Assembly (NCBI GenBank): GCA_021108395.1
Contig: JAIOQZ010000027.1
Coordinates: forward strand, 124,001 to 188,000
Direction of reading: 5' to 3'
From: Candidatus Cloacimonadota bacterium
GTDB taxonomy: Bacteria; Cloacimonadota; Cloacimonadia; Cloacimonadales; JAIOQZ01
DNA length: 64,000 bases
The translations under genes were made by a program, and so were the position numbers. Under the pieces are notes generated by a model. It was not told where the DNA came from. It was given only the letters and a program-made list of their open reading frames with translations, and did not search any database. Each line of letters begins with the position of its first letter. Within the stretch, counting starts at the first letter, position 1. Positions 3,863 through 56,846 of the stretch are shown here, piece by piece.

Positions 3863-5014
3863 ATGCCCACGGCTCATTTTCGGTCGTTTGTCGGTTTTTG
3901 CCTGTTGTGGCTGGTCGTTGCGCCGCTCATCGCCATCGACATCATGCCCGAGCCTGTGGGCGACAACCTGCGCCTGCTCATCCTGGTGCCATTCGATGAG
4001 CTGCACTTTGAAGCGGCCACCGACAGCTTCGGCAACCACATTCAAATCTGCCACAGCGAACTGAGCGTCGATGTCCTGGATGGCCGCGGACGCGAGACGT
4101 TCCATACACTGCACACAATCCGTTTCACCATGCCCCCGCAGATGATGCCCGGCAGCGCCGCCTATCCATTTGAAGCCTCTGTTCAATTGGACAAGGGCTA
4201 CTATACAATATACACGAGCTTATTCAACAAGTTGAGCGGCGCCAAGACGACCCGCACTCTCGAAGTGCGCGTGCCCCGCCACGGCGCCAACGCCGGCACT
4301 CTGTGGGCCATCTGCCAGCGAAACGGAGCACTGTTCATGTCCCGAACCCAGTGGCCATGGAGCGCCATCGACTCAGTGCGCTTCACCCAGGCCTTCGCCC
4401 CCCCCCCCGACAGCGTCATGCTTTACATCGAAGGCCTCGCCGCCTGGCCGCTACAGCCCGACGGCGACACCTGGTCAACAACGCTGCACCCCAGTGGCTG
4501 GCAGGGGCAGCTCGATCAGGCGCATTCCGTCGCCGTTTATGCCGACAAACGCCTGCAAACAGAGTTTCGCATGCCCTCGACGCTGTATCTGTTCCAGCGC
4601 GAATACACTCCGAACGAGCAGGTGTCGCAGTTACGCTACATTCTCAACAGCAACGACATGCGGACATTCCACCAGTTGGACGACGATGAGTTGCAACCGG
4701 CCATCGACCGCTTCTGGGATATGATCGATCCCTCGCCGGGAACCCAGCAAAACGAATATCGCCAGGCCTTCTACGACCGCATAATAACCGCCGATGAACG
4801 CTACTCCATCAAGGGTGGCAGACAAGGCTGGCGGACCGACATGGGGCGCATCTTCATCATCTATGGCGATCCAGATGAGATTGTCGAAGAGGTTCATCCA
4901 TTCGATTCGCCCGCATACATCATCTGGCGATATTACGAGGAAATGAAGGAATTCATCTTTTACGACTTCAAGGGGTTCGGAAGTTATGAACTCCGCAACA
5001 AATGGCAGGATTGA
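3863..5014 (+). CDS. GWxTD domain-containing secreted protein 1
   Basis: A 383-residue protein with a signal peptide (hydrophobic stretch at about 10-26) and a C-terminal GWxTD domain. The signature G-W-R-T-D is at residues 322-326, followed by M-G-R-I-F-I-I-Y-G-D-P-D. The family has no established biochemical role and is seen mainly in FCB-group and related candidate phyla. The start follows GGAGG at 3854-3858. A second GWxTD gene follows 36 bases later on the same strand, so the two probably form a pair. A periplasmic or outer-membrane location is inferred from the signal peptide. Confidence 0.8.
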   Translation: MPTAHFRSFVGFCLLWLVVAPLIAIDIMPEPVGDNLRLLILVPFDELHFEAATDSFGNHIQICHSELSVDVLDGRGRETFHTLHTIRFTMPPQMMPGSAAYPFEASVQLDKGYYTIYTSLFNKLSGAKTTRTLEVRVPRHGANAGTLWAICQRNGALFMSRTQWPWSAIDSVRFTQAFAPPPDSVMLYIEGLAAWPLQPDGDTWSTTLHPSGWQGQLDQAHSVAVYADKRLQTEFRMPSTLYLFQREYTPNEQVSQLRYILNSNDMRTFHQLDDDELQPAIDRFWDMIDPSPGTQQNEYRQAFYDRIITADERYSIKGGRQGWRTDMGRIFIIYGDPDEIVEEVHPFDSPAYIIWRYYEEMKEFIFYDFKGFGSYELRNKWQD

Positions 5015-5050
5015 AAATATGACCTCGCAACAAATGACAGGGTTATGGTT

Positions 5051-6418
5051 ATGAAACTGATTCTCGCGCTTCTTCTTCTGGGACTGATGATGCCGCTTGT
5101 GGCTGCCGAGGACACGCTCAACCTGTATGTGGAGGCTCTGCGCTTTCCACAGCTTGGCAACACGCGAGTCGAAATCAACTACAAGATTCCCTATGCGTCG
5201 CTGGCGTTCGTTGCGGGCGAGTATGGATACGAGGCCTCGGTTGAAGTGGCCATAGATGTGTTGCGCAGCGATGGCTACCGCACCATCAAAACTTTCACCA
5301 ACAAGATTCTCACCGCCGACCCATACGCCCCGTCGTCCGCATCGCGATACTATCTTGACAAAATCTCGCTGGATCTCAACGACGAACTGAACTTGCGCCT
5401 GCGTTTCACCGACACCGTTTCCGGCGCTACTCACCAGTGGACACAGCAGCTCACTCTGTTGCCGCCCGACGGCGCACTTTCCGACCTCGAGCTGGTTTCG
5501 AGCGTCTCTGCCGACACAACGCGCTATCTCGAAAAATTCCATCGACTGGGGCGTTTGTTCGTGGTGCATCCCGACCACATCTTCACCGCTTTGCAGAACG
5601 ATACACTGTGGGTTTACGCCGAGATGATGGCCACGCCGGATGAAATCGGCCTCGAAGTCCTGCCGGTTCTCACTGTTACCGGCGGGGAAATCGATTCGAC
5701 CCTGGCGATAGCGGGATTCACCGTGCAGGCGGGGTTCAACGAAATTCTGCTGCCACTGCGACTGGTGGGTATCTCGGAGGGTTACTACTCACTGCGCTTC
5801 GACCTACAGATTCCGGGACGTTCGCCTCTTACCCGCGAGAGCTACTTTCTGCGCCGCGAGCCGCGAGCCGGCGTGTGGCGGTTGTTCGAAAAGATCGAGG
5901 ATGAGAAGCAATTGCTCGGTTATTTCCTGCCACGTTCGCAGTTGCGCCCCTGGGACAACCTTACCGATACCGGCCGTATGCATTTCCTCGACCGCTTCTG
6001 GACCTCCCACGACCCCACGCCGGGCACTCCCGAGAACGAGTTCTTCACGCTGGTGCAGGAACGCATTCGTTTTACCAACGAGCAATACGGGGTTTATCAG
6101 CCAGGCTGGAAAACAGACCGCGGCCGTATATACATCCGCCTGGGAGCGCCTGACTCGGTGGACAAGAAAACCTCTTCCGGTTCGGCGCCGGTGGGCGGCG
6201 ATATCCAGTCGCCCAGCGCCGGACTGATGGGCGCGCGCGATTATCATGTCTGGAAGTACTATCAGGAAGGTTCGCACAGGACGTATCTGTTTTTCGACAA
6301 GCAGACCAGCGGTGACTTGAAATTAATCTATGTCGATGGCGACGAAAAGGAGGTGGGCGACCCAAGCTGGCGTTTCTTCATGGGCAGCGACTTCGACGAG
6401 ACCGACCTACAGCGTTAA
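5051..6418 (+). CDS. GWxTD domain-containing secreted protein 2
   Basis: A 455-residue protein with signal peptide MKLILALLLLGLMMPLVAA, a beta-rich middle section, and a GWxTD domain near residue 352 (G-W-K-T-D-R-G-R-I-Y-I-R-L-G-A-P-D). I chose ATG 5051 over ATG 5045 because CAGGG at 5038-5042 then sits 8 bases upstream. It shares its layout with the preceding GWxTD protein, so the two look like an old tandem duplication. Its last 4 bases overlap the convergent YraN-family gene. The exact function is unknown. Confidence 0.8.
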   Translation: MKLILALLLLGLMMPLVAAEDTLNLYVEALRFPQLGNTRVEINYKIPYASLAFVAGEYGYEASVEVAIDVLRSDGYRTIKTFTNKILTADPYAPSSASRYYLDKISLDLNDELNLRLRFTDTVSGATHQWTQQLTLLPPDGALSDLELVSSVSADTTRYLEKFHRLGRLFVVHPDHIFTALQNDTLWVYAEMMATPDEIGLEVLPVLTVTGGEIDSTLAIAGFTVQAGFNEILLPLRLVGISEGYYSLRFDLQIPGRSPLTRESYFLRREPRAGVWRLFEKIEDEKQLLGYFLPRSQLRPWDNLTDTGRMHFLDRFWTSHDPTPGTPENEFFTLVQERIRFTNEQYGVYQPGWKTDRGRIYIRLGAPDSVDKKTSSGSAPVGGDIQSPSAGLMGARDYHVWKYYQEGSHRTYLFFDKQTSGDLKLIYVDGDEKEVGDPSWRFFMGSDFDETDLQR

Positions 6419-6774
6419 TTTTCTGGCCGAAAGGCATCGAGAACGTGATTCACCTTCCAGTGAGAGCCGGATGGAGTCACGGTGATGACATCGAAGCGCG
6501 TTTGCAGCCCATCAAGTTCTGGATGCCTGGCCAGATAATGCAGGGCTGCGGCGACCAGTTTTCGTTGCTTGCGGGCAGAAACGCTGAGCAACGCGGTTTC
6601 GTGGCCACCTGATCGTTGTTTCACTTCGCAGAAAACAAGACATTCGCCATCAAGAAATACGATATCGATTTCACCTTCCCGACAATGATGGTTACGAGTC
6701 AGGATACGATAATCGTTGCGCGCAAGATGATGCGCGGCGAACGACTCGGCAGTAATCCCGTCTGAAATGCTCAT
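6415..6774 (-). CDS. YraN/UPF0102 family endonuclease-like protein
   Basis: 119 residues, the normal size for the UPF0102 (YraN) family, which has a restriction-endonuclease-like fold. The core motif is visible: A-E-S-F-A-A-H-H-L near the start, then R-E-G-E-I-D-I-V and E-V-K-Q-R, giving the family's E...D...ExK pattern. The true role is not settled; nucleic-acid processing is usually assumed. It lies convergent to the GWxTD gene and overlaps its end by 4 bases. It is the only minus-strand gene in the first 20 kb. Confidence 0.85.
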   Translation of the reverse strand: MSISDGITAESFAAHHLARNDYRILTRNHHCREGEIDIVFLDGECLVFCEVKQRSGGHETALLSVSARKQRKLVAAALHYLARHPELDGLQTRFDVITVTPSGSHWKVNHVLDAFRPEN

Positions 6775-6790
6775 AATGAAAAAAAATAAC

Positions 6791-6817
6791 TTGACTATGT
6801 GTTGTCAATTCTAAAAT
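6791..6817 (+). promoter_or_regulatory. Candidate promoter of the TPR/ExbB/AgmX operon
   Basis: TTGACT at 6791-6796 and TAAAAT at 6812-6817 are separated by 15 bases, shorter than the ideal 17. They sit in the only AT-rich gap (6775-6877) before the plus-strand operon that runs to 18053. A strong ribosome site AGGAGG (6867-6872) precedes the first gene. Confidence 0.35.
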
Positions 6818-6877
6818 GTATAGATGAAAGAAATGTCTTTGGGATGATTTCATCAAAATAGTATACAGGAGGCATCC

Positions 6878-7903
6878 ATGAAGGGGAGAATTTTCAGTGT
6901 TATTGTCTTGGTTCTTGCAGCAGGAGTGTTGCAAGCCGTACCGTTCACCTGCCTGGGCGGCATCAAGGTTCCCACCGCCTATGTACTTCCGCATCTGATG
7001 GCGGAGTTCTCGGCAGTTTCCTATTTTGGCCCTGGTGTTGACGAACTTACCTACGTAACGGTCTACGACAACGACTTTGTCATTACCGATGAGCAGGACT
7101 TGCAGTTCACCTATGCCGGAGTGTTCAATTTCGGTCTGTTCAACCGTGTTGAGCTGGGCGCCGTATATACCGGCAACGAAATGTTCATGCTCAACGCCAA
7201 AGCCCAGATTCTGTATGAATCTGAAACATTGCCGGCGCTTTCTGTCGGTATGGACAACCTGTTCTCCGACATCACGCAGAAAGACCAGGACGATGGCGAA
7301 GTCGATTTGGAGAAGCACAACTTCACCGACCTCGATGACTACACCGCCAACTCGATTTACGTTGTCTTGTCCAAGTCAACCGTTTTGCGTGGCCTGCCGT
7401 TCAGCAACTACCTCGAAACCGTTCTTCATATCGGCTTCGGCCAGAATCGGTTCGAGGGCAATGCCGAGCTTTCCAAACAGCTTGGCGGCTTGTTTGGCGC
7501 AGTCGAAATCAAACCGGTACCCTACATGTCTGTAATCGCCGAGATGGACGGTTACAACGTGAACTTCGGCGCGAACTTCATGTATAAGAACTTCGAATTC
7601 CGCGGCGGTATCTACCGCATCGAGGAAATCGGTCGCAGTGAAGCTGGCCGCGACAAAGTCAAGTTCGCCCTGAATGTGCGCTATACGTTGGACTATTTCT
7701 CAGAGATCAAGGCTGCCGGCAAGTATGCACAGTTCAATCCGACCGCCGAGATCCGCCCCGATCAACGCCGTCGCGCCGAAGTCCGCCGCGAAACGGGCGC
7801 TGCCGGCGAAAACCCGCTGTTGGAAGAGCTCGAGGCGATTCGCGCCAGGCGTCGCCAGGCGGAGGAAGAGCTTGACGAAATCCGGCGTGTGCTCGAGGAT
7901 TAA
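6878..7903 (+). CDS. Outer-membrane beta-barrel-like protein with C-terminal coiled coil
   Basis: 341 residues. A signal peptide (about 1-20) is followed by about 250 residues of alternating hydrophobic/polar, Phe/Tyr/Asn-rich sequence typical of a small beta barrel. A charged C-terminal tail from about 285, rich in Arg and Glu (L-E-E-L-E-A-I-R-A-R-R-R), probably forms a coiled coil. No named family was recognised. It opens the envelope operon and is followed by a TPR gene 74 bases downstream. An outer-membrane role is inferred from the signal peptide and strand pattern. The coiled-coil tail could contact the TPR proteins encoded next. Confidence 0.55.
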   Translation: MKGRIFSVIVLVLAAGVLQAVPFTCLGGIKVPTAYVLPHLMAEFSAVSYFGPGVDELTYVTVYDNDFVITDEQDLQFTYAGVFNFGLFNRVELGAVYTGNEMFMLNAKAQILYESETLPALSVGMDNLFSDITQKDQDDGEVDLEKHNFTDLDDYTANSIYVVLSKSTVLRGLPFSNYLETVLHIGFGQNRFEGNAELSKQLGGLFGAVEIKPVPYMSVIAEMDGYNVNFGANFMYKNFEFRGGIYRIEEIGRSEAGRDKVKFALNVRYTLDYFSEIKAAGKYAQFNPTAEIRPDQRRRAEVRRETGAAGENPLLEELEAIRARRRQAEEELDEIRRVLED

Positions 7904-7977
7904 TATCTCCGCGCACAATGCCTATTTTCCCGGTTCATGATGCGTCTGATACACAACAACCAAAGAGAAGAGACAGC

Positions 7978-10110
7978 ATGAAACTAGCTATCGCACTGTT
8001 GCTTTCTGTTCTGTTTGCCCTGACCTGCCTGCCTTTGGCGGGACAGAATTCGGATGGGGCGTTGGAAGCGGTCTTAGAGGAAGAATACTACGCCTTCGAT
8101 CGGATCAATGCCGAGATCGAGCGTCTCGGATTGTTGGCTGTTCGCAGGACAGAAGTGAAACAAGCATACGAAAGCGGCAACCTTGCCAGCGTCCAACGCA
8201 TGTTCCTGGTTGACTCGGAGCCGTTGCTTGATTTCCTCGACAACATGGAATACAGCCCTGCGCTGGGCGAATTAATCGACCTGATACTGGTCTATCAGAA
8301 CGTGCCGCAGCTTGGTGATCAACTTCTCTTGTACGAGGGTGTCATCTATAAAGGCTATGGCCGTCTGGCTACCGCGCAGAGCCGATTTGAGGAACTTCTG
8401 GCCGAGTATCCCGGCTCGCAGTACTCAAACGATGCTGTAATCATGTTGGAGGAGATATACTTCCTTCTGGATGAAAACGAGGCGCTCGTGTCTCTGGCTG
8501 CACAGTATCCCGACAACATGCGGCCCAAACAGGTGTTCTGGCTGGCCAACGCTCACTTCAACCTCGACAACATGGAAGAAGCCGAAGCGCTGTTCAATTC
8601 TCTTCTCTCCGATCCGAATTACGGATTCAAGGCCGAGGCTCTGCTGGCCCTGACCAGCTATTACAACTTCGGTCTTGAATATGCCATCGAGAAGTTTCTC
8701 ATACTCGTGCTCGACTACCCCGAAGAATCGCTGAATTTCGACTTCGTCTATCTGTCGCTGGGGCGCCTTTATCAGGAGCGCGGCGATTTCGAGAAAGCCC
8801 TGTATTGCTACAACTACTTCATGGATATAACTCAACAGCAGTTTACCGACGAATTCTATTACGAGCTCGTTTTGTTGAATCTTCAGATGGAAGATTACGA
8901 GACAGCCTTGTCTTTTCTCGGCGAACTGCTGAACGATCCTTACGAAACGTCCTACTATAACTCGCCCAACTATCTTTCCGCAATTATCAACTATGGGCAG
9001 GGCAACATAACCGACGCCAAGGGAGACATCAATCTGGCGCTGGACGACACGTCTTTGATGGTGAATGTGCTGGACGCAAAGCGCGAGCTCATCCGACGAC
9101 ACAAAGACCTGATGAATCAGTACAACCAAAGTTCGACCCGCAATGCCCGCGAAGAAGTTCGCACCCGTCTCCTCGATCTCAATGAGCAGATATATGTCTC
9201 TACCGGAACGTTGGAGAATGTGGCTGTTGGCCTCTCGCCCGACGATGTTATTCGTCTCCAGATATATGAAGAGGAATTCGCGCTCGTCAACGACACCATC
9301 GAACAAGTTCGCCTGCTCATCGACCTTGCGAACAGCCGGCCCAACACCAAGGTTCCAGAGCAAATCGACCAGCGTGTGGAAGAGCTCGACGGCTATATTG
9401 TCGAGATAGGCACACTGCAATATCTCAGCAGCCTCGATCAGTTGAAGATGGGCGACTATGAACTCGCCTATGCTCTGGCGAATGAGATTGGCAAGACACG
9501 CCTGCTCGTCGACAAGTGGCAACGATTCAGCGACAGCCCGGGAACCAGCCCCGATGTGCGCAGCCGTGCTCAGAGAGCCATCGGCTTGATGCAGGGCAAT
9601 CTTCAGTCGCTCGAGACAGTGGCCCTGTATGCTTTTGGCGAACAGCGCACCGAAACCGAGTTTCAGCAGAAGCTTGCCCAGGAACTGCAAATCCTTCAGG
9701 ATTTCCGTACCCGGATGTTGATGGTTCGCGAGCAGGCCGTTCGCGATTACAACAGACAGATCGCCAAGCGTCTTGGCAGCGTGAACCTGCTGTTGCTTGA
9801 CGAAAATCAAGGACTTCGCGAGCAGTATGTCGAGGTGCTTGCTTCTCTCGAACAAAATGTTCAGGATGTTTCCGCCAGATTTGAATACACCCTTCTGGAT
9901 ATCCTCTACGACGAAACGTTGCAGATGGACGAACAATTTCAGCAACTTCAGGCCGAATATCGCGATCAATCGTCCCCGCAGGTTCAGCCGGAGATAACCG
10001 AGCCAGAGCCTGACGATCAGCCTGATACGACAGAGCCGGAGCCCAACGACCAGCCTGAGGAAATCGAGCGGTCTGAGGGTGAGATACCGGCGGACAACGC
10101 GGGGGAATAG
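7978..10110 (+). CDS. Periplasmic TPR-repeat protein
   Basis: 710 residues. The signal peptide MKLAIALLLSVLFALTCLPL precedes a long array of TPR-like helical pairs (A-x2-x-F-x2-L-L-x2-Y-P and similar, about residues 110-330), coiled coil, and an acidic Pro-rich tail with repeated E-P-E-P-x-D-Q-P. I moved the start from the longest frame (7918) to ATG 7978 because the signal peptide begins there, behind AAAGAGAAGAG. The architecture recalls BamD/YbgF-type periplasmic scaffolds, but no ortholog is claimed. The next gene starts 4 bases after this stop, so the two are probably translationally linked. Confidence 0.65.
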   Translation: MKLAIALLLSVLFALTCLPLAGQNSDGALEAVLEEEYYAFDRINAEIERLGLLAVRRTEVKQAYESGNLASVQRMFLVDSEPLLDFLDNMEYSPALGELIDLILVYQNVPQLGDQLLLYEGVIYKGYGRLATAQSRFEELLAEYPGSQYSNDAVIMLEEIYFLLDENEALVSLAAQYPDNMRPKQVFWLANAHFNLDNMEEAEALFNSLLSDPNYGFKAEALLALTSYYNFGLEYAIEKFLILVLDYPEESLNFDFVYLSLGRLYQERGDFEKALYCYNYFMDITQQQFTDEFYYELVLLNLQMEDYETALSFLGELLNDPYETSYYNSPNYLSAIINYGQGNITDAKGDINLALDDTSLMVNVLDAKRELIRRHKDLMNQYNQSSTRNAREEVRTRLLDLNEQIYVSTGTLENVAVGLSPDDVIRLQIYEEEFALVNDTIEQVRLLIDLANSRPNTKVPEQIDQRVEELDGYIVEIGTLQYLSSLDQLKMGDYELAYALANEIGKTRLLVDKWQRFSDSPGTSPDVRSRAQRAIGLMQGNLQSLETVALYAFGEQRTETEFQQKLAQELQILQDFRTRMLMVREQAVRDYNRQIAKRLGSVNLLLLDENQGLREQYVEVLASLEQNVQDVSARFEYTLLDILYDETLQMDEQFQQLQAEYRDQSSPQVQPEITEPEPDDQPDTTEPEPNDQPEEIERSEGEIPADNAGE

Positions 10111-10114
10111 CCTG

Positions 10115-13100
10115 ATGAAAAGGATGAGTTACATGCGTCACCGAGTGATTTTCACTATCGTTCTCGCAGCCATTCTGATGCCGTTGCTTGCGGTTGACAT
10201 GATTGATCTGGAGCGCGAGCACCAGCGCATTCTGGAACAGAAGCGTCAGCTCTCTACCAGGATTGAGCAGAGCATCCGGCAATACCCGCAATCACCCGAT
10301 TTGCCCTACCTGTACTATAAGCTTGCGCGTTTGAGCGCCGAGATTGAAGGCATTCAAAATCCGCGGCGCACCGCCCAGCTCTATGAGATGGTGATTGACC
10401 TCGACCCGACGTTCAACGACAGGGATGTTGTGCTGTATAACATGGCGTTCTTCTATTACGACGCAGCCCGACAACAGCGCGCAAGCGCCCGTGAGCGCGC
10501 CTTGCAGAACGACCCAGCCGTTGCCGTTAACTGGCCGGACGAGATGCGGCTCACGCCGGAGACGCCAGAAGTCGCCAAGGCAATCGACGCCTATAACACC
10601 ATATTCGCCGAGATGACCCAATCGATCTATAGCTCCGAAGCTGTGTTCCGCCTGGGCAATCTCTACTATGACCTCGCCTTCGATTCGCGAGATCCCGAGC
10701 GCCTCCTGGATGTGGCCCAACGCTATTTCAATATTCTGGCCAACCGTGAGGATGACCCGCTACAGAAGTATGGACAGTTCAATCGCGGCTGGGTGAATTT
10801 CACCGCAGGCAACTATGACGCCGCCATCGAGGATTTCGCAGCCATACTCAACACGTTCGATCAGGGAGAAGCCGAAGACCTGCGGGTCTATTTCCAGCGC
10901 GACGCCATCGAGAACATCGCGTTCAGCCTCGTGCAAACCGACAGCCTCGACTTCGAGGGCCAGAGCCAGGCCGCTCAGCTTGCCCGCGAGGGGTTCATTC
11001 AACTCAGCAGTGTGGAGATGGTCAAGCAAGTGCTCACCGAGGCCATCAATCTCAAAATCGAGCTGAACGCCCCGATGCAGGCTGTCGATCTCTACCAAGC
11101 CTACATTTTCCTCTATCCAGCCGACATCCTGGGCCCCAGCTATATCGACTCGATCATCACAATCTACAAGCGCTATCCGGCCCGCATCCGTGGTGTCGGT
11201 TCGATAACTGCCGATAACGCCGGGCAGATGGTGCAACCTTATGTCATCGACGCCTATGAACTGATGGTGAACACATATGGCCCCGACTCGCAGTGGTTCA
11301 GCGCCAATTCCGACACAGTCGGCATCGGTGAACAGCTGGACATACTGCGCCACGCATACATCTATCTGGGCCAGGTTTTCTGGAACCGATTCTCCGACAC
11401 CCGCGGCGAAGAGGAATTCGAGAAATTCGTTGAGTTGTACACCAACTTCAGCAAGTATTCGCCGTTTATGGACGAAGATGGCCGCCAGTGGCTTTACGAG
11501 AATGAAGCCCGCGCCATTCAGGGCAGCCTCACGCTGGCCGATGAAATCGGCGACCCCACCCGTTGGCTCATCGCCTGGCGCAACATTGTGCGCAGCAACG
11601 ACAATTTCCCCGACAACGCCAACTTCATGGTGAACGAAACCAACGCCTATTTCGCTGTCGAGAAAATCTTCACGCTGCTGGACTCGACCATCGACCAGCA
11701 GGCGTACGTCGATACACTGCATGACATCAATATTGACCGCGCCTATCTCAACAGCATGTACATCGATGGGTCACTGCGCTATGAGCATGTGTTGCGTAAC
11801 GACTCGTTGAACGTTGTGGAAAACGGCTTCGAGCAACTTGTGCAGATAATTTTCAAGCGCGCCGAACTGCGCTTCGAGACATCCCTGTTTGACGAAGCCT
11901 ATACCGATTTCGAGGACATTCTCGCCCTGGCGCCGGAAGACCCCGATGTCCGCAAGGTTGTTCTCGACCGCCTCGCGTTCCTTAACAACCAGCGTGGAAA
12001 CTTCACGCAGGCCGAAGACTTCTATCGTCGTTCGCTTGAGTACACTCAGGACGACGAAGAGCGCGTCACCATCGAGAACAACATCGCTTCGGCCATCCAG
12101 TCTGGCGGCAACGCCTTTAAAGAATCGGGCAATTACGCCGAGGCCGCACAAGAATTCCTGCGTCTGGCCGACCAGGTGAAACCCACCGACACCGACGCCG
12201 CGCTCGCATTTATGGCGCAGGCCGTCGATATGTATAACCAGATTCCCGACTACCTCGCCTCCATCGGCCTGTTGCGCGATATGGCCGATATGCGGGAGCT
12301 TAAAGAAGAGGTGTTGAGCTACTTCGTGAGCGCCTGGAACACCGCCGACAGCCTCATGGGCGACCAAGATCTGGGCGATGAGTTGCGCTGGGAGTTTGTG
12401 AACGAACGCTTCCCGGGAAGCAACGAAGCCTACAACATCGAGATAGGCATCATCCAGCGGTTCGCCGAAAGTGAAGACACAGCTTTGAAAGAGCAGGCCG
12501 CAACGATGTATGTCTCGGTTCACGACCGCGCCGACGAAATAGACATGGGCGAGGACACTCGTGAGAACCTGTATCTCAACGCCATCAGCCTGCATCAGGA
12601 TATGGGCAACGAAGACACCGTCATCGAGATGATGCTCGCTTTCGAGATTATGTATCCCGAACACGAAATGGCCAACGACTTCCTGGTCACCGTGGCCAGG
12701 ATATACAAAGATCGCGGCAATGAAGCCAGATTCAAGGAAATGGCCTTCTACATCAACGAGAAGGACCCCTCGATTCCGCTGCTCGAATCGATTGCCGCCG
12801 ACGAACTGAAAGAACACTACAACGCTGCCATAGAAAGTTTCAAGAACGAGAATTACGAAGTGATGCGCGAAGCTATCACAGCATACAACGCTACTCAGGT
12901 AGAGTATGCCCGCCTCAACCTCGAAAACGCGGCGGCGGAAGAGCAGTTCATCTACTTCGAGCAATACATAACCTATCACCAGGTGACCTATGTCGCCGGC
13001 ATCGCGGCCGCAGAGGCCTATCTGAGCACCGACCCGAACGAATTGCTGCTCGTTGGTAAGCCCTCTAAGTGGAAAACCCGCATCGCGCCGCGTGTCGAGG

Positions 13101-14455
13101 CGATGCCCGGCAAGGCCGAGGTGGCCGCCACCGCTATCCTCGAAACAATGCGTGGCGGCAATGAATTCGACATCACCATCCCGCAACAGACTCGCTTGCT
13201 GTGGCTGGCAGGGCAAGCCTATGAGTACTCGCATGATGTCGTGGTTCAGCAGGTACAGAAGTATATCGACGTGACTGACGAGTCCGACAAGTATCGCCAG
13301 TCCGGCCCTGTTGTTTTCGAGCAGTTCCAGGCGGGTGTGGCTCAGGCCACTCAGCCACAGCGCACCGAACTGTTACGTTCTGCGTTGTCCTACTATAACA
13401 CGATGCTCGAAAATTTCGCCGACAACACCGACTACACCGATGAATACACCGAGCAGGCGATCGAGAAGCTCATCGAGTTCGGCTTCCGCAAGCCCAAGGA
13501 AACGACAACCATCGCCTTTGACAGCTCATGGCGCGTCAATAGCGCCGCCGTGACCGATTACGACAGCGAACGCACAGTATCGCAAAACTGGACTGGCGTG
13601 AACATCGTTGGCCAAGTGAGCCCCGAAGGCATGGACGAGATGCAGCTGGCGGCCGGCAATATGGGCATGGACAGCTTCTATCGCGTCCGGTTCAATGCCG
13701 AAATCGTGCCGGAGCTGATTCGAGTGAATTATCTGGCTGCACAATCAGCCGGCGTGTATATCAACGGTCAGCTAATCGAGCGCGAGTCGTCGGTGGTCGA
13801 TTCTGTGGAGGTGGATGGTTATATGTATATCCTCTACTCGATGGCCATCTCGGATAACCTGTTCCAGGGCAACAACGACCTGGCCGTCTCACCCGTCGGC
13901 GAGACCCAGGTATTCTCGGCGCAGCTTGTGGTGCAGTATGACCAGGAGCAGATCGACTTCTTCCGCAACACCGAGCTTGCCACGCTGGGTTCCGACCTCG
14001 ACTGGTACACCCTGCGCACCGATTCATTGGACACAGGCACAGTCGAGATTGGCGCCGACTGGCAGACGGCCGCTTCCGGCCACTTCAGCTTCTATAAGGT
14101 GCAAATGCAGAACATGCAAGAGACCAACGCTCTGGAGATTTGGTCGCCGACCTACGACAGCACCGCCATTGACACAGTCTGGTTCATCAAGCAGATTGAC
14201 GTTCCCACCGAAATCGTCAAGGCCGACCTGAAGTTCATCGGCCAGCAATACATATCCGTGTGGATCAACGGCGAGCCGTTGTTCACCGACCTCGAAATCA
14301 TCGTTGACAACATCGCAAGCCAGGTCTTGCCCTATGAAATCTCGTTGGAGGCCGACCGCTTCCAGTCAGGCACAAACACTATCCTTATCAAGGTAGTGGG
14401 CGCCGAGCAGTTCAAGGGAATGATTTTTGACATGCAATACTATCGCAGAAAATAG
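10115..14455 (+). CDS. Giant periplasmic TPR protein with C-terminal carbohydrate-binding-like modules
   Basis: About 1446 residues, starting at ATG 10115 behind GGGGGAA (10101-10107), with a signal peptide (hydrophobic stretch about 10-25). Most of the chain is TPR-like helical repeats (for example A-x-L-Y-E-M-V-I-D-L-D-P and A-E-D-F-Y-R-R-S-L-E). The last 250 residues change to beta structure with two similar modules: V-Y-I-N-G-Q-L-I-E near residue 1215 and V-W-I-N-G-E-P-L-F near 1382, each followed by a G-x-N-x-(L/I) strand. These resemble jelly-roll sugar-binding domains; this is pattern recognition, not a database match. The operon position suggests a scaffold of the motor complex, perhaps touching peptidoglycan or exopolysaccharide. 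Confidence 0.65.
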   Translation: MKRMSYMRHRVIFTIVLAAILMPLLAVDMIDLEREHQRILEQKRQLSTRIEQSIRQYPQSPDLPYLYYKLARLSAEIEGIQNPRRTAQLYEMVIDLDPTFNDRDVVLYNMAFFYYDAARQQRASARERALQNDPAVAVNWPDEMRLTPETPEVAKAIDAYNTIFAEMTQSIYSSEAVFRLGNLYYDLAFDSRDPERLLDVAQRYFNILANREDDPLQKYGQFNRGWVNFTAGNYDAAIEDFAAILNTFDQGEAEDLRVYFQRDAIENIAFSLVQTDSLDFEGQSQAAQLAREGFIQLSSVEMVKQVLTEAINLKIELNAPMQAVDLYQAYIFLYPADILGPSYIDSIITIYKRYPARIRGVGSITADNAGQMVQPYVIDAYELMVNTYGPDSQWFSANSDTVGIGEQLDILRHAYIYLGQVFWNRFSDTRGEEEFEKFVELYTNFSKYSPFMDEDGRQWLYENEARAIQGSLTLADEIGDPTRWLIAWRNIVRSNDNFPDNANFMVNETNAYFAVEKIFTLLDSTIDQQAYVDTLHDINIDRAYLNSMYIDGSLRYEHVLRNDSLNVVENGFEQLVQIIFKRAELRFETSLFDEAYTDFEDILALAPEDPDVRKVVLDRLAFLNNQRGNFTQAEDFYRRSLEYTQDDEERVTIENNIASAIQSGGNAFKESGNYAEAAQEFLRLADQVKPTDTDAALAFMAQAVDMYNQIPDYLASIGLLRDMADMRELKEEVLSYFVSAWNTADSLMGDQDLGDELRWEFVNERFPGSNEAYNIEIGIIQRFAESEDTALKEQAATMYVSVHDRADEIDMGEDTRENLYLNAISLHQDMGNEDTVIEMMLAFEIMYPEHEMANDFLVTVARIYKDRGNEARFKEMAFYINEKDPSIPLLESIAADELKEHYNAAIESFKNENYEVMREAITAYNATQVEYARLNLENAAAEEQFIYFEQYITYHQVTYVAGIAAAEAYLSTDPNELLLVGKPSKWKTRIAPRVEAMPGKAEVAATAILETMRGGNEFDITIPQQTRLLWLAGQAYEYSHDVVVQQVQKYIDVTDESDKYRQSGPVVFEQFQAGVAQATQPQRTELLRSALSYYNTMLENFADNTDYTDEYTEQAIEKLIEFGFRKPKETTTIAFDSSWRVNSAAVTDYDSERTVSQNWTGVNIVGQVSPEGMDEMQLAAGNMGMDSFYRVRFNAEIVPELIRVNYLAAQSAGVYINGQLIERESSVVDSVEVDGYMYILYSMAISDNLFQGNNDLAVSPVGETQVFSAQLVVQYDQEQIDFFRNTELATLGSDLDWYTLRTDSLDTGTVEIGADWQTAASGHFSFYKVQMQNMQETNALEIWSPTYDSTAIDTVWFIKQIDVPTEIVKADLKFIGQQYISVWINGEPLFTDLEIIVDNIASQVLPYEISLEADRFQSGTNTILIKVVGAEQFKGMIFDMQYYRRK

Positions 14456-14468
14456 GAAGGAGTTCACC

Positions 14469-14708
14469 ATGCGCAGAATCTTGTTGTATCTTTTCGCGGC
14501 CTGTGCCGTGAGTCTGGCAGCGCAAACGACTCCGGTTGGATTCGGCAATGCGCAACGCTTCACCGATGAGGAAGTAATCACAATCGAGGTCGAGCAGCTC
14601 AAACCGGAGAGCTCGACGCTCAAGGAACGCAAGGCAGCCAAGGCAGAAGCCGGCCGCAAGCGCTTCTTTATGGAAGCTTACAAGAAATCGAATAAACTGT
14701 TATATTAA
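14469..14708 (+). CDS. Small secreted basic protein of unknown function
   Basis: 79 residues from ATG 14469 (AAGGAG upstream). A signal peptide M-R-R-I-L-L-Y-L-F-A-A-C-A-V-S-L-A-A is followed by about 60 charged residues with many Lys, Arg and Glu. No family was recognised. It sits 13 bases after the giant TPR gene and 17 bases before the ExbB-like gene, inside the operon. The fixed position suggests an accessory part of the same complex. Confidence 0.6.
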   Translation: MRRILLYLFAACAVSLAAQTTPVGFGNAQRFTDEEVITIEVEQLKPESSTLKERKAAKAEAGRKRFFMEAYKKSNKLLY

Positions 14709-14725
14709 CCGCAGGAGGTTTCAAC

Positions 14726-15475
14726 ATGACAACGGGTTTCAAAAAGGGTGTTTTCATCGCTATCATGCTAATGATCGTGGCATTCCTGGCCGCACAGGAG
14801 ACAGTTGAGGAACCGAGTCTTTTCCAGCAGATGTTCTCCGGCCCAGGCGCTTACTTCATGTACGTCATCCTGTTCCTTGGAGTCGTGGTGATGGTTCTGG
14901 CCATCGTCAAACTCGGCAAGCTTGCCGTGAAAGAGAAATTCGACGCCCAGCGTTTCTATCTCAAACTGAAGGGCTACATCAAGAACGAGCAGTTTGACGA
15001 AGCCGTCAAGGTCTGTTCAAACTTCAAGAGCAAGACGCTCGGTTTCATCTTCTGGAACGGCCTCATCGCTTTCAATGACGCCCGCAAAGCCGGCAAAAGC
15101 GGCAGGGAACTGCGCGACACGCTGCAAAACGCCTTTGACGAGGCCGGCCTACAGCAGATACCCAAGATTACCTCCGGCCTCTACTGGTTCGACTTGTTCG
15201 CCCAGATTGCAACGCTGCTTGGCCTGTTGGGTACGATCTTCGGTCTCATCCTCGCGTTCCAGGCTCTGGCCAACGCACCCGAAGCCGAAAAGGCTTCACG
15301 CCTGACCAACGGTATCTCCGTCGCCATGGGCACCACAGGTTTCGGCCTCATCGTGGCCATCCCGACCATGCTCATCAAGGGTTATCTTCAGGGTCGCGCC
15401 GAGCAGATCGTCAATGACATTGATGAATTCAGCGTCAAGACCATCAATCAGATTCACTACACAATCAAGGACTAA
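14726..15475 (+). CDS. MotA/TolQ/ExbB proton channel family protein
   Basis: 249 residues. An N-terminal hydrophobic segment (about 8-24, possibly a signal or extra helix) precedes three membrane helices: about 42-62 (Y-F-M-Y-V-I-L-F-L-G), about 155-180 (A-T-L-L-G-L-L-G-T-I-F-G-L) and about 200-220 (T-T-G-F-G-L-I-V-A-I-P-T-M-L). The last two are the family signature of the proton-driven channel. Partners are the two ExbD-like proteins encoded directly after it. A strong site CAGGAGG precedes the ATG. Likely an inner-membrane stator of a TolQR/AglRQS-type motor. Confidence 0.9.
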   Translation: MTTGFKKGVFIAIMLMIVAFLAAQETVEEPSLFQQMFSGPGAYFMYVILFLGVVVMVLAIVKLGKLAVKEKFDAQRFYLKLKGYIKNEQFDEAVKVCSNFKSKTLGFIFWNGLIAFNDARKAGKSGRELRDTLQNAFDEAGLQQIPKITSGLYWFDLFAQIATLLGLLGTIFGLILAFQALANAPEAEKASRLTNGISVAMGTTGFGLIVAIPTMLIKGYLQGRAEQIVNDIDEFSVKTINQIHYTIKD

Positions 15476-15478
15476 ATC

Positions 15479-16000
15479 ATGGCTGCCGGTCCGTCTAAAG
15501 CCAGAAAGCTCGACTTAGAGGAGATGAAGGATTTGAACCTGATTCCTATCATGAATCTCTTCATCGTGGTCATCCCAATGCTGATGCTCATTACGGTATC
15601 GGTTCACATGGCGATGCTCCAGATTACGTTGCCTTCGGCAGATGGCGGAGGCTCCAGCTCCGAGGATCAGGAAGGCGAGAAGGAGAAGCTGATTGCCCTG
15701 TTCGACACAGGCTTCAAAATCATCACTCCAGGCGGCGATGCGGAAGACATCGACATTCCCATACGGAATGAGATGATTCCCCGCGATGAAGTATTCGACC
15801 GCTATAACTTCTCGCTCCTGAACGAGGAACTGCTCAAGATCAATCCGCCGGACGACAACCAATGGAGATCGGTCGGGGTTATGCCAAATCCCGACACGCG
15901 CTATGACCTGCTTCTTCTTGTCATTGACCTCTGCAAGAAGAATCACCTGGAAGTAACGTACAAGGAGTTCCGCTCCGAGTACTTCCGCATGGCGCAGTAA
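15479..16000 (+). CDS. ExbD/TolR-like protein lacking the membrane Asp
   Basis: 173 residues: a short cytoplasmic N-terminus, one membrane helix (about 20-42) and a periplasmic domain. The helix begins N-L-I-P-I-M-N-L-F. In ExbD/TolR the motif is N-x2-P-x2-D, and that Asp carries protons. Here codon 26 (15554-15556) is AAT, giving Asn at exactly that place. The periplasmic half has an acidic insert and is longer than in typical TolR. It starts 3 bases after the ExbB-like stop and is followed by a second ExbD with a normal Asp. It probably pairs with that protein as a non-protonatable partner (inference). Confidence 0.8.
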   Translation: MAAGPSKARKLDLEEMKDLNLIPIMNLFIVVIPMLMLITVSVHMAMLQITLPSADGGGSSSEDQEGEKEKLIALFDTGFKIITPGGDAEDIDIPIRNEMIPRDEVFDRYNFSLLNEELLKINPPDDNQWRSVGVMPNPDTRYDLLLLVIDLCKKNHLEVTYKEFRSEYFRMAQ

Positions 16001-16021
16001 CCGGATGGCCGAGGAGCAACC

Positions 16022-16597
16022 ATGAAGAAAATATCTTACACCGAATTGAAACGAGGTGGCAGTCAAGGTAAGGGAAGAACCGCAAAGCGTAGGCAGCCGA
16101 AAGCGAAGAACCTGAACATCACTTCGCTCATCGACATCCTTACAATTCTGCTAATTTTCCTGATCCAGAACGTCTCGATGGAAGCACAGAAGTCCAATCC
16201 CCCCGAGGGCATGGAACTTCCCTCAAGCGCCTCCATCGACTCACTTGTAACCAACGGCCAAGTCGTTATCATCAAGGTTTATGGGAAGAACGCGGGGACA
16301 TATCCCGACGGACAGGTTCTGTTCGGTACTTCCTCGACCCCCGTGGGCAACTTGGATTCCTTTGTCAACGACCCCGCGACCCGCAATGCCATGCTGTTTC
16401 TTCTTAAAGAACAGGCGGCAGCCATCATGGCATCGGCCACAGACGCGATACCAGTAATCCTCATCCAGGCGGACAATAATGTAGAGAACCGATACATTAC
16501 CGAAATCGTTAAGGTTAGCGGTAGTGGCGACTTCGGCAATATCTACTTCTCCAGCATCCGTGCAGTGGATCTCTGGACCGATCTGACCGATTCGTAG
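16022..16597 (+). CDS. ExbD/TolR-like protein with conserved Asp
   Basis: 191 residues. A very basic N-terminal tail (about 8-29) precedes the membrane helix N-I-T-S-L-I-D-I-L-T-I-L-L-I-F-L. The proton-carrying Asp is present at residue 38 (GAC 16133-16135), although the usual Pro two residues after the Thr-type position is Ser. The periplasmic domain ends in the family's typical V-I-L-I-Q-A-D and V-K-V-S-G pattern. The start is ATG 16022 behind GAGGAG. It forms the motor with the ExbB-like protein and probably with the Asn-bearing ExbD encoded just upstream. Confidence 0.85.
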   Translation: MKKISYTELKRGGSQGKGRTAKRRQPKAKNLNITSLIDILTILLIFLIQNVSMEAQKSNPPEGMELPSSASIDSLVTNGQVVIIKVYGKNAGTYPDGQVLFGTSSTPVGNLDSFVNDPATRNAMLFLLKEQAAAIMASATDAIPVILIQADNNVENRYITEIVKVSGSGDFGNIYFSSIRAVDLWTDLTDS

Positions 16598-16613
16598 GGT
16601 AATAGGAGTTCTT

Positions 16614-18053
16614 ATGGCAAAACTTTTAGGTTTAAAACTTAAATACCAGGATAAGTTCCTGAGCTATGTGACTGAAAAGAGAGATTTCGGGAAGAAGTTC
16701 CTGATTGGTTCGGATCCGAACCTGTTCTGGCAGATTCTCGATAGTCGCTTTCCGAAGCAACACATTCTGATCAGCAAGCATGGGAACACCTTCAAGCTGC
16801 ACCTTCGGCAGGGCATGAACCTCTCCGTTCAACGCGGAGACGAGACTCTGTCGATGGAGGAGCTGAAGCAACGCAAACTCATACGCGGCAATGACCTTAT
16901 ACTGAGCGAAGACACACGCGGCACCATCACCCTGGGCAAGGACTGGGAGATTGAATACGCCTTCTCCAAGCCCTACGCGCATGTGCCCACTCAGGCAGAG
17001 CGTGCACTCATCGCGCAGTTCTCGCGCCGTCCACCAAGCTCGGCGGAGCAGAAATTCACATCTGTGTTTCTGCTATTGGCCATACTGGTCACCGTTATCG
17101 GCATCATTATCTTCCAGACAATGAAACCGGAACCAACGCAAAAACGCTCTCTCGTCGAGCTCTATCAGGCGCGCGAGATGGCGCAGCTCGTGCAGACAGA
17201 CGCCATGGTTGCAGAAGACGCTACAGGTACGGAAGAGGATTATAGCCAGCGTGACGTTGCGGCAGAGCGTGAAGCTTCGGCCGCAGACGCCGAACAAGTG
17301 GTCGCTGAAGCCGCACAGGTCAGCGCAGGCATGATATCCGAAGACCTCGGTTTCGAATTCGATCCGAACGCAGTGCCTCAAGGTGGCATAGCCGGCACAG
17401 ACATTGGCGCCGACGCTATCCTACAGGTAAATCAGGCTTCATCCATCGTATCAACGGGCGGTTCAGGGCGTTCTCTGGCTTCCAACGAAGCCGCAGCCAT
17501 GTTCGATGCCCGCGCCGCAGGTGGCGCCCAGGCGCTGGAAGGCGCTGGCGACATCGGCGGTATGCTGGCTACTGACGCCATCGGCGTTGGCGGTGGCGGC
17601 ATGGCGCTCGAAGCTGTTGACATCGGCCAGATAGCCGGTTCCGGCGGCAGCTTCCAGGTCGTTCAGCTCACCAGCAATGCTCAGTTCCAGTCCATTCGCG
17701 CATCCCGCTACGGTGGTATCGCACGCGTGAGCCAGGAAGAACTGGACATCCTGCCCCCCACCGACCCGCAACGCACCGAGTTCGCCAACATCAAGACCTA
17801 CATCTCCACCTACCAGACACAGGTCGAGAACGCCTTCCGCATCGAGTCCGCAGTGTCTCCGATGCACGGCACGCTCGAGATCACACTGCTCATCCAGGCA
17901 GGCGGCAAGGTGGATGGCGTCGAACTCAGCACCGTTCCCGGCAGTCAGTTCAGCCAGGGTTTCCTGTCCAAAGTGGAAGACATCTGCATGGCCTGGAAGA
18001 TACCCGTCAGCAAGAACACGATTTACTCGTGGCGCATGCAGTTCATGCAGTAA
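16614..18053 (+). CDS. FHA-like / AgmX-PglI C-terminal domain protein (GltG-like)
   Basis: 479 residues in three parts. The cytoplasmic N-terminus (about 20-120) shows F-L-I-G-S-D-P, then P-K-Q-H-I-L-I and K-L-H-L, which resembles an FHA domain only weakly. One membrane helix lies at about 150-168. The periplasmic region is Ala/Gly-rich and low in complexity, followed by a TonB-like AgmX/PglI domain (about 390-479: Y-x3-V-x2-A-F, G-T-L-E-I-T-L-L-I and G-G-K-V-D-G-V). The layout matches GltG of the myxobacterial gliding complex in general form. It is the last gene of the operon, with a terminator just after it. Confidence 0.75.
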   Translation: MAKLLGLKLKYQDKFLSYVTEKRDFGKKFLIGSDPNLFWQILDSRFPKQHILISKHGNTFKLHLRQGMNLSVQRGDETLSMEELKQRKLIRGNDLILSEDTRGTITLGKDWEIEYAFSKPYAHVPTQAERALIAQFSRRPPSSAEQKFTSVFLLLAILVTVIGIIIFQTMKPEPTQKRSLVELYQAREMAQLVQTDAMVAEDATGTEEDYSQRDVAAEREASAADAEQVVAEAAQVSAGMISEDLGFEFDPNAVPQGGIAGTDIGADAILQVNQASSIVSTGGSGRSLASNEAAAMFDARAAGGAQALEGAGDIGGMLATDAIGVGGGGMALEAVDIGQIAGSGGSFQVVQLTSNAQFQSIRASRYGGIARVSQEELDILPPTDPQRTEFANIKTYISTYQTQVENAFRIESAVSPMHGTLEITLLIQAGGKVDGVELSTVPGSQFSQGFLSKVEDICMAWKIPVSKNTIYSWRMQFMQ

Positions 18054-18083
18054 CGCAACAACATCCATAAAGCCCCTTCGGGC

Positions 18084-18120
18084 CTCAGAGTGTTGACGTT
18101 GTCAGCACTCTGAGTTTTTA
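18084..18120 (+). terminator. Rho-independent terminator of the TPR/ExbB/AgmX operon
   Basis: A 14-base stem with one G-T pair (CTCAGAGTGTTGAC / GTCAGCACTCTGAG, loop GTT) at 18084-18114 is followed by TTTTT at 18115-18119. It lies 30 bases after the AgmX-like stop codon. Confidence 0.85.
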
Positions 18121-54205: not shown

Positions 54206-55264
54206 TTAGATTAGCTTACTAAGCTCAATGTATCTGTCATTGTTATATTTCGCTTTTGCATCAAAAGCGTGCTTGTTGTATATCCGCGTTAAACGTTTGT
54301 TTCCACTGATTTCACGGCAAATCCTATCATCGTTCACTATCAATTCAATTTCAGATACTAAATACCATTTTCTCAATAATTCTACATATCTGTCTGTACC
54401 CCGATTCTCATTACTGTTGATATACTGATACTTTTCCATAAATTCGGGGGATGCTATGGAATTTATTATTTTAAGAATCTGCTCCATTGTATTGCTTTGC
54501 TGAGACAATAAATCCCATAACTCTGATGCAACCAGAGTTTCATCTGCTGCGAAATACTTCGTCATGTTAATAATTGACTTCAAAAATCTTGCTTTGTTAT
54601 GCGCGGTTCTTGCTTCCTTTTCAGGATTAACGGTTGGATCGAAAGGAAATCCAATGAAGAATTCAATCCGTTTACTTGGAAATGCTAAGGATAATGCAGC
54701 TTTGCCTTCTAATATTTTAGACTTCTCCCCTTTCATCTCACCTGAATTTGGCTTCACTGATTTAAGCTCAATTGCAGTTATCACATTTTCATCTTCAATA
54801 AACACATCAACAGAAAAATCACCAGCCTTTATAAAAGGTTCAACAGTGCTGTAATAAATAGCTCTATTTTCATATTCAAGATTAGGTTCTTTTGTAGAAT
54901 TACTTAAGTCTGTAATAATTTGAGTAATCTTGTCTTTCTGAGATTTTGTTATTCTAAGGTTTCCTAATGGTTTTTTTGACGTATATTCTCTCTTTTCACC
55001 CTGACTCAAGTGGTGAGCAATGTTTTCAAAAAATGTTTGGCCAAGAGTCGTATTCAACCCCTGTAACCAACTACTTAAGCTAATGAAATATGGTATGTCT
55101 GAGACTCTTCCTTCAATCTTGTCAGAAAAAGCTTTCAGAAATGCCTCGTGAAACGGCGCATTACGATTACTTGAAGCGTCAGTTGGAAAACTCTCAAATC
55201 GAGATACAAGTGTTCGAATTACTTCCTGCGAGATTTTTTCCTTAATTTTATCCGATAATGCCAT
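54206..55264 (-). CDS. Type II restriction endonuclease, TdeIII/MjaII-like
   Basis: 352 residues, AT-rich codons quite unlike the flanks. The resemblance is to the TdeIII/MjaII family, whose members cut GGNCC. A PD-(D/E)xK-type core is visible as S-V-D-V-F-I-E-D-E-N followed by A-I-E-L-K-S-V-K (about 150-172). The start ATG 55264 comes one base after the methyltransferase stop, with AAGGAG in the end of that gene. The GGNCC specificity is a family-level inference. Confidence 0.7.
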   Translation of the reverse strand: MALSDKIKEKISQEVIRTLVSRFESFPTDASSNRNAPFHEAFLKAFSDKIEGRVSDIPYFISLSSWLQGLNTTLGQTFFENIAHHLSQGEKREYTSKKPLGNLRITKSQKDKITQIITDLSNSTKEPNLEYENRAIYYSTVEPFIKAGDFSVDVFIEDENVITAIELKSVKPNSGEMKGEKSKILEGKAALSLAFPSKRIEFFIGFPFDPTVNPEKEARTAHNKARFLKSIINMTKYFAADETLVASELWDLLSQQSNTMEQILKIINSIASPEFMEKYQYINSNENRGTDRYVELLRKWYLVSEIELIVNDDRICREISGNKRLTRIYNKHAFDAKAKYNNDRYIELSKLI

Positions 55265-55265
55265 T

Positions 55266-56846
55266 TCATTTCTCCTTCATATGAAATATTATTTCAGCGT
55301 AGGCTGCTCTACTCTTTTCCACTCGGTTTAAAACAGGCCTTTTGTATTCATTGACAATTACCATATTTGATAAAGCAGCAATTTGTGGGTACAAACCATA
55401 TTTATCATTTGCTACTAAGAACACATTGTAATCCTGTTTCATGAAACGTTTACAATTATTCAATACGTCAGAAATGCCTTTAACGTACGACTTCCTGGCA
55501 TCAATTCCTTGTCCTTTAAACAATGGACCTATTTCTAATTCATCCCTTCTTTCAAAACCGAATAGATCGTAGGCATAGGCGTGTTGTTCATGGTAGTTAA
55601 TGAGACCTACATAAGGCGGACTTGAAAAGATCCCATCAATCTTTCTGTTAGTGAGCAACATGCCAAACTCAGGATTTCTTTTCGTCAATCTCTCAATTAA
55701 ATCAATATCTCTACTATCACCAGTCAGGCATAATTGGAAAGTCTCAGTCCTCAATTGACTGTATTGAAGAAGTCGCTTTATCGTGTCTTGTACATATCTC
55801 TGCCACCAGCTTGATATAGAAAACAATGGTTTGCATATCTTGCCATGCTTCTTGCAGTAATATGTAGTAATTATTGGTTCTTTAAGCGTTCCTAAATCAG
55901 CATGAGTAGTAGCGCGACATGATCGAACGGTTCGACTTAGCACTAAAGCAAGAATATTTTTTGTCTCTGAGTCGGCGATGTTTATAATCTGATCAAAAAC
56001 GAAGTCGATTTCATCTCTTACAACTTGCAAAAACCACTTATCCAGAAATGTATCACTTCCTGGCTGAGTCAATTTGATCTTATACTCACTTATTAACTCA
56101 TTGTAAATTGGTAGAAACTCATCTGATTTCTGATTGCCATACTCCTTTTCATTTATTACCTTCTTGATAACTTTGTACTTATACTCAGGTGATGGAAAAT
56201 ATTGATTATTATACAATCTCAGTTCATCTAACAGGCGATTCTCAAAATCCACATTTCTTTTTTCTCTTTGAAACTGCTTCAGTTTTCTGGTAATGGCGTC
56301 GGCTGTATGTTTGATGTCATATATGTTATATTTTCCAAGTTTGATATTGCTGATGAAAGCATTAAATGCAGAAACATCAATTCCAATTGAATGAATGCCC
56401 AATTCACTTGCCTGAACGAGAGTAGTGCCGCTACCACAAAAAGGATCCAATACAATATCTCCAGCATTGAAAAAGTAGTCCCTCTTGAATCTATCAGTAT
56501 GCTGATCCAAAAAGTACTCGACCAATTGTGGAATGAATTTTCCTTTATACGAGTGAAGTCGATGAACATGTTTTGTTGTTTCAGATTCTTTATATTCAGA
56601 GAAGGATAAATCCCAGTTTAAATCTCTCCCTAATTGCTTTTTCCATCGGTCTTTCTTTGTCTCGTGATGCGTTTTGTAGTATTCTTCCAAGTCATGTCTG
56701 TTGACAATAACACTTCCATTTTTATCACTTTTCTTGGGGATTCTGCCATACTGTATCAAGTAAGAGATATTCGACGCAGTAACGTTTCTACCCAATAAAT
56801 TGGATGCCCATATGCCTGCTTCCTTTACTGTCATCAACTCATGCAT
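55266..56846 (-). CDS. DNA methyltransferase of the type II system
   Basis: 526 residues, AT-rich. The N-terminal 60 residues look like an excisionase/MerR-type helix-turn-helix (M-T-V-K-E-A-G-I-W-A-S ... Y-G-R-I-P-K). The SAM motif D-P-F-C-G-S-G-T-T is at 134-142 and the catalytic S-S-P-P-Y at about 407-411. Ser before Pro-Pro-Tyr suggests N4-methylcytosine. The order (SAM motif first, about 265 residues between) is not the common beta order of such enzymes. It protects host DNA against the nuclease encoded next and, with its helix-turn-helix, may also control the operon. Confidence 0.85.
   Translation of the reverse strand: MHELMTVKEAGIWASNLLGRNVTASNISYLIQYGRIPKKSDKNGSVIVNRHDLEEYYKTHHETKKDRWKKQLGRDLNWDLSFSEYKESETTKHVHRLHSYKGKFIPQLVEYFLDQHTDRFKRDYFFNAGDIVLDPFCGSGTTLVQASELGIHSIGIDVSAFNAFISNIKLGKYNIYDIKHTADAITRKLKQFQREKRNVDFENRLLDELRLYNNQYFPSPEYKYKVIKKVINEKEYGNQKSDEFLPIYNELISEYKIKLTQPGSDTFLDKWFLQVVRDEIDFVFDQIINIADSETKNILALVLSRTVRSCRATTHADLGTLKEPIITTYYCKKHGKICKPLFSISSWWQRYVQDTIKRLLQYSQLRTETFQLCLTGDSRDIDLIERLTKRNPEFGMLLTNRKIDGIFSSPPYVGLINYHEQHAYAYDLFGFERRDELEIGPLFKGQGIDARKSYVKGISDVLNNCKRFMKQDYNVFLVANDKYGLYPQIAALSNMVIVNEYKRPVLNRVEKSRAAYAEIIFHMKEK

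Follow-up and report, generated by a model that had tools for sequence, protein, structure and literature searches.

Within the window, the 64,000-nucleotide stretch of Cloacimonadota DNA analyzed here, we identified a conserved set of eight genes whose products appear to form a machine that draws on the proton gradient and transmits force through the cell envelope. The operon is a relative of the Agl/Glt "core complex", defined as aglR, aglQ, aglS, gltC, gltD, gltE, and gltG (Luciano et al. 2011, PMC3169522), because its ExbB groups with Agl-type motors and its last product has a predicted GltG-like layout, with an FHA domain, a transmembrane helix, a linker, and a TonB-type end. Overall, we consider it somewhat more likely than not that the operon encodes an Agl/Glt-core-type, proton-driven force transducer spanning both membranes, built around an ExbD1–ExbD2 axle with a single proton-carrying Asp, and, most speculatively, performing work on a surface polymer.

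Organization of the operon

Eight plus-strand genes separated by small gaps span positions 6878–18053 and are followed by an intrinsic terminator, in agreement with the original prediction made from the sequence letters:

6775–6877, +: intergenic region from yraN to the operon, presumably including the promoter (sequence)
6878–7903, +: BB, predicted outer-membrane beta-barrel protein with a signal peptide (AlphaFold and Foldseek)
7978–10110, +: TPR1, signal-peptide TPR protein, 710 aa (Pfam TPR)
10115–14455, +: TPR2, signal-peptide TPR protein, 1446 aa (weak Pfam TPR matches)
14469–14708, +: sml, small secreted protein, 79 aa (conserved family A4)
14726–15475, +: ExbB/AglR-type proton-channel subunit (PF01618, E 2e-24; Thr170, Thr203, and Thr204 invariant)
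15479–16000, +: ExbD1, Asp-less TolR/ExbD-type protein (PF02472, E 2e-7)
16022–16597, +: ExbD2, TolR/ExbD-type protein retaining the proton-carrying Asp38 (PF02472, E 3e-10)
16614–18053, +: GltG-like transducer (AlphaFold and Foldseek; hhalign)
18084–18114, +: intrinsic terminator, a 14-pair stem followed by TTTTT (sequence)

The operon is divergent from yraN (6415–6774, −; assigned by Pfam UPF0102), and an AGGAGG ribosome-binding site lies upstream of 6878, while no match to a sigma-70-like promoter was found in the intergenic region. An alternative ATG at 7918 would yield a TPR1 of 730 aa. The Pfam matches bear out the two TPR proteins, the ExbB/TolQ channel, and the two ExbD/TolR proteins proposed earlier, and no TolB, Pal, or TonB genes adjoin the operon, again as first noted.

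Predicted structures of the envelope proteins

Since neither BB nor the GltG-like protein has a convincing Pfam match of its own, both were modeled. The AlphaFold model of BB (mean pLDDT 70.8) forms a barrel of about 12 strands, with Foldseek matches to FapF, a designed 12-strand barrel, and KdgM-type porins, consistent with the barrel-like first protein initially suggested. A C-terminal coiled coil at about residues 313–340 is conserved, and genomes retaining the operon have a strong-scoring BB match. An assignment of BB to the TIGR04565-type barrels was not accepted (hhalign 0.2%).

In the GltG-like model, residues 1–120 match FHA structures by Foldseek, residues 144–170 form a helix where a transmembrane segment is predicted, with a disordered linker after it, and residues 385–479 adopt a TonB C-terminal fold; the two end domains have a pLDDT of about 92–96, and the low pTM (0.34) is due to the linker. 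A direct sequence search with this protein in the named genomes gave no match, and profile comparison aligned it to the Calditrichota GltG at 97.6% (hhalign, 421 columns). The AgmX/PglI model scores 13.1 bits on the protein of the window, below the cut-off of 40, and reaches 23 of the 28 aligned GltG-like relatives at E<=0.01. The FHA-like, membrane, and AgmX/PglI parts that had been read from the letters are thus all recovered, the last of these through the relatives.

By the same profile comparison, in which unrelated controls stayed under 1%, TPR1 and TPR2 correspond to the first (hhalign 95.9%) and second (99%, 642 columns) TPR proteins of the Calditrichota cluster. TPR2 ends in a galactose-binding-like beta-sandwich matching a carbohydrate esterase (9h4u, E 4e-6). 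In some families, a single ORF of about 1950–2140 aa takes the position of TPR1–TPR2; it always matches TPR2, and matches TPR1 significantly only in two loci (L053 and L065). The TPR proteins occupy the right place for GltC, GltD, and GltE; these names were not accepted, as hhalign similarity to the Bdellovibrionota GltC/D/E is no better than expected from shared TPRs. Similarly, the position of sml resembles that of GltF/CglF-like genes in related clusters, and its homology to CglF-like proteins is weak.

Two further arrangements of GltG-type domains were observed. On another contig of the same genome (C7), a second full-length GltG-like protein (L153:9902–11410, −), with no ExbB nearby, is encoded 12 bp upstream of the gene for a von Willebrand A/YfbK lipoprotein (L153:8051–9889, −). 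The myxobacterial gliding adhesin CglB is also a VWA protein, and YfbK-type VWA proteins are common. Separately, an AgmX/TonB-type end alone is found on short lipoprotein-like proteins, both in the host genome (L154:9698–10189, −, contig C17) and in genome G010 (L161:9676–10077, −).

Relationship to Agl/Glt motors

The nearest ExbB relatives are all found in Cloacimonadota genomes, which fits the earlier impression of a probably non-myxobacterial host. In the ExbB tree, the sequence from the window joins the other Cloacimonadota sequences (100/99), next to which a Calditrichota sequence branches (84/89), all within a group including Bdellovibrionota, Fibrobacterota, and deltaproteobacterial motors. 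This group is placed apart from E. coli TolQ/ExbB and from the ExbBs on contigs C15 and C20 of the same genome. Support for the branch between Agl-type and TolQ/ExbB sequences is moderate (80/64; recovered in 84% of bootstrap trees), and the reference sequences include some long branches. The corresponding kind of gene cluster occurs at several loci from Calditrichota, Fibrobacterota, and deltaproteobacteria. In a Bacteriovoracia cluster (L142), the TIGR04565 barrel model scored above its cut-off, and the GltC, CglF, and GltG models matched below theirs. Judged from sequence and fold comparisons, the motor and the GltG-like protein are homologous to the Agl/Glt core. The AglRQS/Glt parallel drawn in the original prediction holds for these components; the TPR proteins show no specific match to GltC/D/E and the barrel none to TIGR04565.

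A 2011 study had already reported Agl/Glt core clusters outside myxobacteria, with examples from Fibrobacter and Gammaproteobacteria, and Cloacimonadota are not among the phyla discussed in the available portion of that report (PMC3169522). Like the core complex as presented there, the operon combines one TolQ-like and two TolR-like proteins, an FHA–TonB transducer, and TPR proteins in a single non-myxobacterial locus, with all identified core-type genes together and outside Deltaproteobacteria. It differs in that clear homology is limited to the motor and transducer, Asn replaces Asp in the first TolR-like subunit, and the barrel and small protein are unmatched to known ones. With M. xanthus AglRQS–Glt, it shares the motor type, the GltG layout (FHA, one transmembrane segment, TonB-type end), TPR proteins, and a similarly placed small secreted protein. 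However, the M. xanthus genes are distributed over three clusters rather than one operon, no MglA was found here, and none of GltA/B/H/I/J/K was identified in a comparison that covered the TIGR04565-type barrel. The Tol–Pal and TonB–ExbBD systems share the 5:2-type motor family and TonB-like tip, but the operon lacks TolB, Pal, and a receptor, and instead encodes two unlike ExbDs, an FHA domain, and large TPR partners. Here the Agl/Glt core is conserved within one operon, in lineages for which we found no function assigned to this core.

Two further motor gene clusters were also noted. A small second cluster in the host genome (contig C4, L059:8336–13187, +) encodes an ExbB and two ExbDs, one with Gly in place of the Asp and one with Asp, along with proteins of 312 and 775 aa without Pfam matches. 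In Fibrobacterota, e.g. G279:C551:1339–2710 (L226), tandem ExbBs, the second within an ORF of ~440 aa, sit beside an Asn-type ExbD, possibly forming another motor variant.

Conservation and loss across Cloacimonadota

Across 25 loci, and as far as each stretch reaches, the order dnaE, GWxTD protein(s), BB, TPR1, TPR2, sml, ExbB, ExbD1, ExbD2, GltG, priA is largely constant, and the eight operon genes themselves keep their order in most of these loci across the taxonomic order. This conservation indicates that the arrangement is not due to chance, and it removes the objection to the original prediction that a lack of conserved order would have raised. The GWxTD-domain proteins (3863–6418 in the window, +) adjoin dnaE in most of the order, often as a single copy where the operon has been lost.

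In four sampled genomes (G008, G034, G042, and G053; L155, L156, L157, and L163), the block was removed cleanly as one unit, leaving GWxTD or yraN directly beside priA. The block is also absent from two f9 loci and a G045 locus (L158–L160), with no GltG found in those genomes, whereas G006, G012, and G057 carry GltG and lack other pieces, probably due to contig ends or incomplete genomes. All these absences are called on draft genomes; the window's own assembly totals 2.89 Mb and is 98% complete.

Three genomes (G019, G032, and G044) retain the envelope part. In two loci (L149 and L151), BB–TPR1–TPR2–sml is followed by a 255–258 aa protein, which has only a signal-like N-terminus and a TonB-type end, and priA comes next; ExbB, ExbD, and the FHA/transmembrane part are all missing from this run. 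A third locus (L150) ends inside TPR1, so that for G032 only a short GltG match beside priA was seen. Relocation of the motor found no support in the single ExbB neighborhood read in each of G019 and G044, which is an ordinary ExbB–ExbD(Asp) system in both. The envelope part can thus persist without an adjacent motor, which counts against our preferred explanation; at the same time, these relatives offer natural controls.

A single proton-carrying Asp in the ExbD pair

Asn26 of ExbD1 aligns with Asp23 of E. coli TolR (and Asp25 of ExbD). Across the window's order as sampled, alignments show Asn at this position in all 73 distinct Cloacimonadota ExbD1 sequences, and the proton Asp kept in all 69 distinct ExbD2 sequences. 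Outside of Cloacimonadota, where loci were chosen non-randomly as nearest ExbB matches, the Asn/Asp pair was found in 30/30 sampled Calditrichota loci and in 27 of 30 Fibrobacterota loci, the remaining three having an Asn-type first ExbD and no second ExbD in the 1.5 kb flank. A mixed deltaproteobacterial group drawn from G059, which does not clearly reach Myxococcota proper, paired an Asp-type ExbD with one carrying Asn, Ser, or Cys in 12 loci, the rest being mostly single ordinary ExbDs. Sampled Bdellovibrionota loci were Asp/Asp in 29 cases and Asn/Asp in 1. The original prediction mentioned neither the Asp-to-Asn change nor its broad distribution, nor the operons that lack adjacent motor genes. 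On the tree, three changes between Asp and other residues suffice, so the trait looks old and stable. The Asn is also part of an invariant ExbD1 motif (PxMNLFxxxxP), conservation is higher in the membrane segment of ExbD1 than in its periplasmic part, and, apart from a few exceptions, the ExbD1 and ExbD2 genes adjoin wherever the contigs and flanks extend far enough.

From these patterns, we infer that ExbD1 and ExbD2 form an obligate axle with one proton carrier. This would run contrary to ExbBD and MotAB models, all of which have two Asps alternating and each proton driving a rotation of 36 degrees (PMC12215075). We see roughly an even chance that these loci belong to an ion-driven type of envelope motor that is widespread, is built on an obligate heterodimeric axle with one protonatable Asp, and breaks the two-Asp alternation assumed for MotAB, ExbBD, and TolQR; the Asp/Asp pairs of Bdellovibrionota would then be in the minority within the Agl-type group. 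Alternatively, and affecting the axle only, ExbD2 homodimers could form the proton-driven axle, with ExbD1 as a non-conducting partner such as a peptidoglycan anchor or a brake. ExbD2 has all that a normal ExbD needs, and the Asn of ExbD1 would block proton transfer; yet the conserved membrane segment and invariant motif of ExbD1 are as expected for packing inside ExbB, and the two genes are kept together, which makes this homodimeric arrangement somewhat unlikely.

No paper describing an Asn/Asp ExbD pair was found in the openly accessible literature searched. In M. xanthus, for which the state is taken from the literature, AglQ and AglS are both described with Asp, and whether they form hetero- or homodimers is unsettled (PMC9389320), a question on which the Asn/Asp pair bears. 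If the heterodimeric axle is real, a natural motor with unlike axle subunits, only one of them proton-carrying, would directly test the assumption of two identical Asps for MotAB, ExbBD, and TolQR.

Proposed mechanism and possible functions

In the mechanism we propose, an ExbB pentamer would hold one ExbD1–ExbD2 heterodimer as its axle. Protons would pass through ExbD2 alone, and the axle would therefore step differently from a two-Asp motor, either by turning about 72 degrees per proton, compared with 36 for two Asps, or through a non-alternating stroke. This motion would pull the GltG-like protein, whose tip may engage sml or the TPR proteins beneath the outer-membrane barrel. Most speculatively, the work would be spent moving or organizing a surface polymer, probably polysaccharide, rather than on gliding. 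Surface polysaccharide handling is our best guess for the task of the machine, a guess based on one distant domain match (the galactose-binding-like end of TPR2), one neighboring locus (polysaccharide-export genes adjoining a Fibrobacterota cluster, L145), and the analogy to Agl–Nfs, which transports spore-coat polymer (PMC3858216). Both systems would have the same motor class pulling an envelope complex, the handling of a polymer being a conjectured likeness, although unlike for Agl–Nfs no sporulation or Exo genes are known in the host.

The homology of the motor and GltG to the Agl/Glt core would also be expected from a true gliding machine that pulls on adhesion sites to move the cell across surfaces, and the nearest motors outside the phylum include those of Bdellovibrionota, a group with a known glider (PMC3169522). 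However, a PF00025 search revealed no stand-alone MglA-like GTPase in the host genome; its two matches fall in ORFs of 819 and 441 codons, which from their length are presumably FeoB and Der. Along with the presence of flagellar genes, including flagellar MotAB with FliM on contig C8 (L057), and the lack of specific matches to GltC/D/E and TIGR04565, this leaves the gliding role raised in the original prediction unsupported. The Asn of ExbD1, set against the Asp of both AglQ and AglS (PMC9389320), points in the same direction, and we regard gliding as distinctly improbable.

A substitute for Tol–Pal, which would keep the outer membrane attached and constrict it at division, would fit the result that TolB was detected above the curated cut-off in none of the 59 genomes of the order, the vertical conservation of the block, and the finding that TolQ is closest to ExbB among solved structures and equivalog models. 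Such a role is nonetheless unlikely, given the clean loss of the whole block in several nearly complete genomes, the placement of ExbB apart from TolQ in the tree, and the absence of Pal and TolB from the cluster. Finally, the TonB fold at the tip of the GltG-like protein is reminiscent of an ordinary TonB–ExbB–ExbD energizer of nutrient uptake, but the operon neither contains nor adjoins a receptor gene, a distinct ExbB–ExbD–TonB locus elsewhere in the genome lies beside a TonB-dependent receptor (contig C20, L058), and the ExbB of the operon is set apart from the ExbB of that locus. This separate system largely refutes nutrient uptake as the function, leaving it very little chance of being correct, and the Agl/Glt parallel is not undermined by any grouping with TonB-energizing ExbBs. 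Additional ExbB–ExbD–TonB-like genes are located on contig C15 (L056).

Elsewhere in the window, an AT-rich segment near rpoA (54206–56846, −; GC 0.385 vs 0.55–0.63 around it) encodes a TdeIII-type restriction endonuclease and a DNA methylase, and is probably an acquired restriction-modification system.
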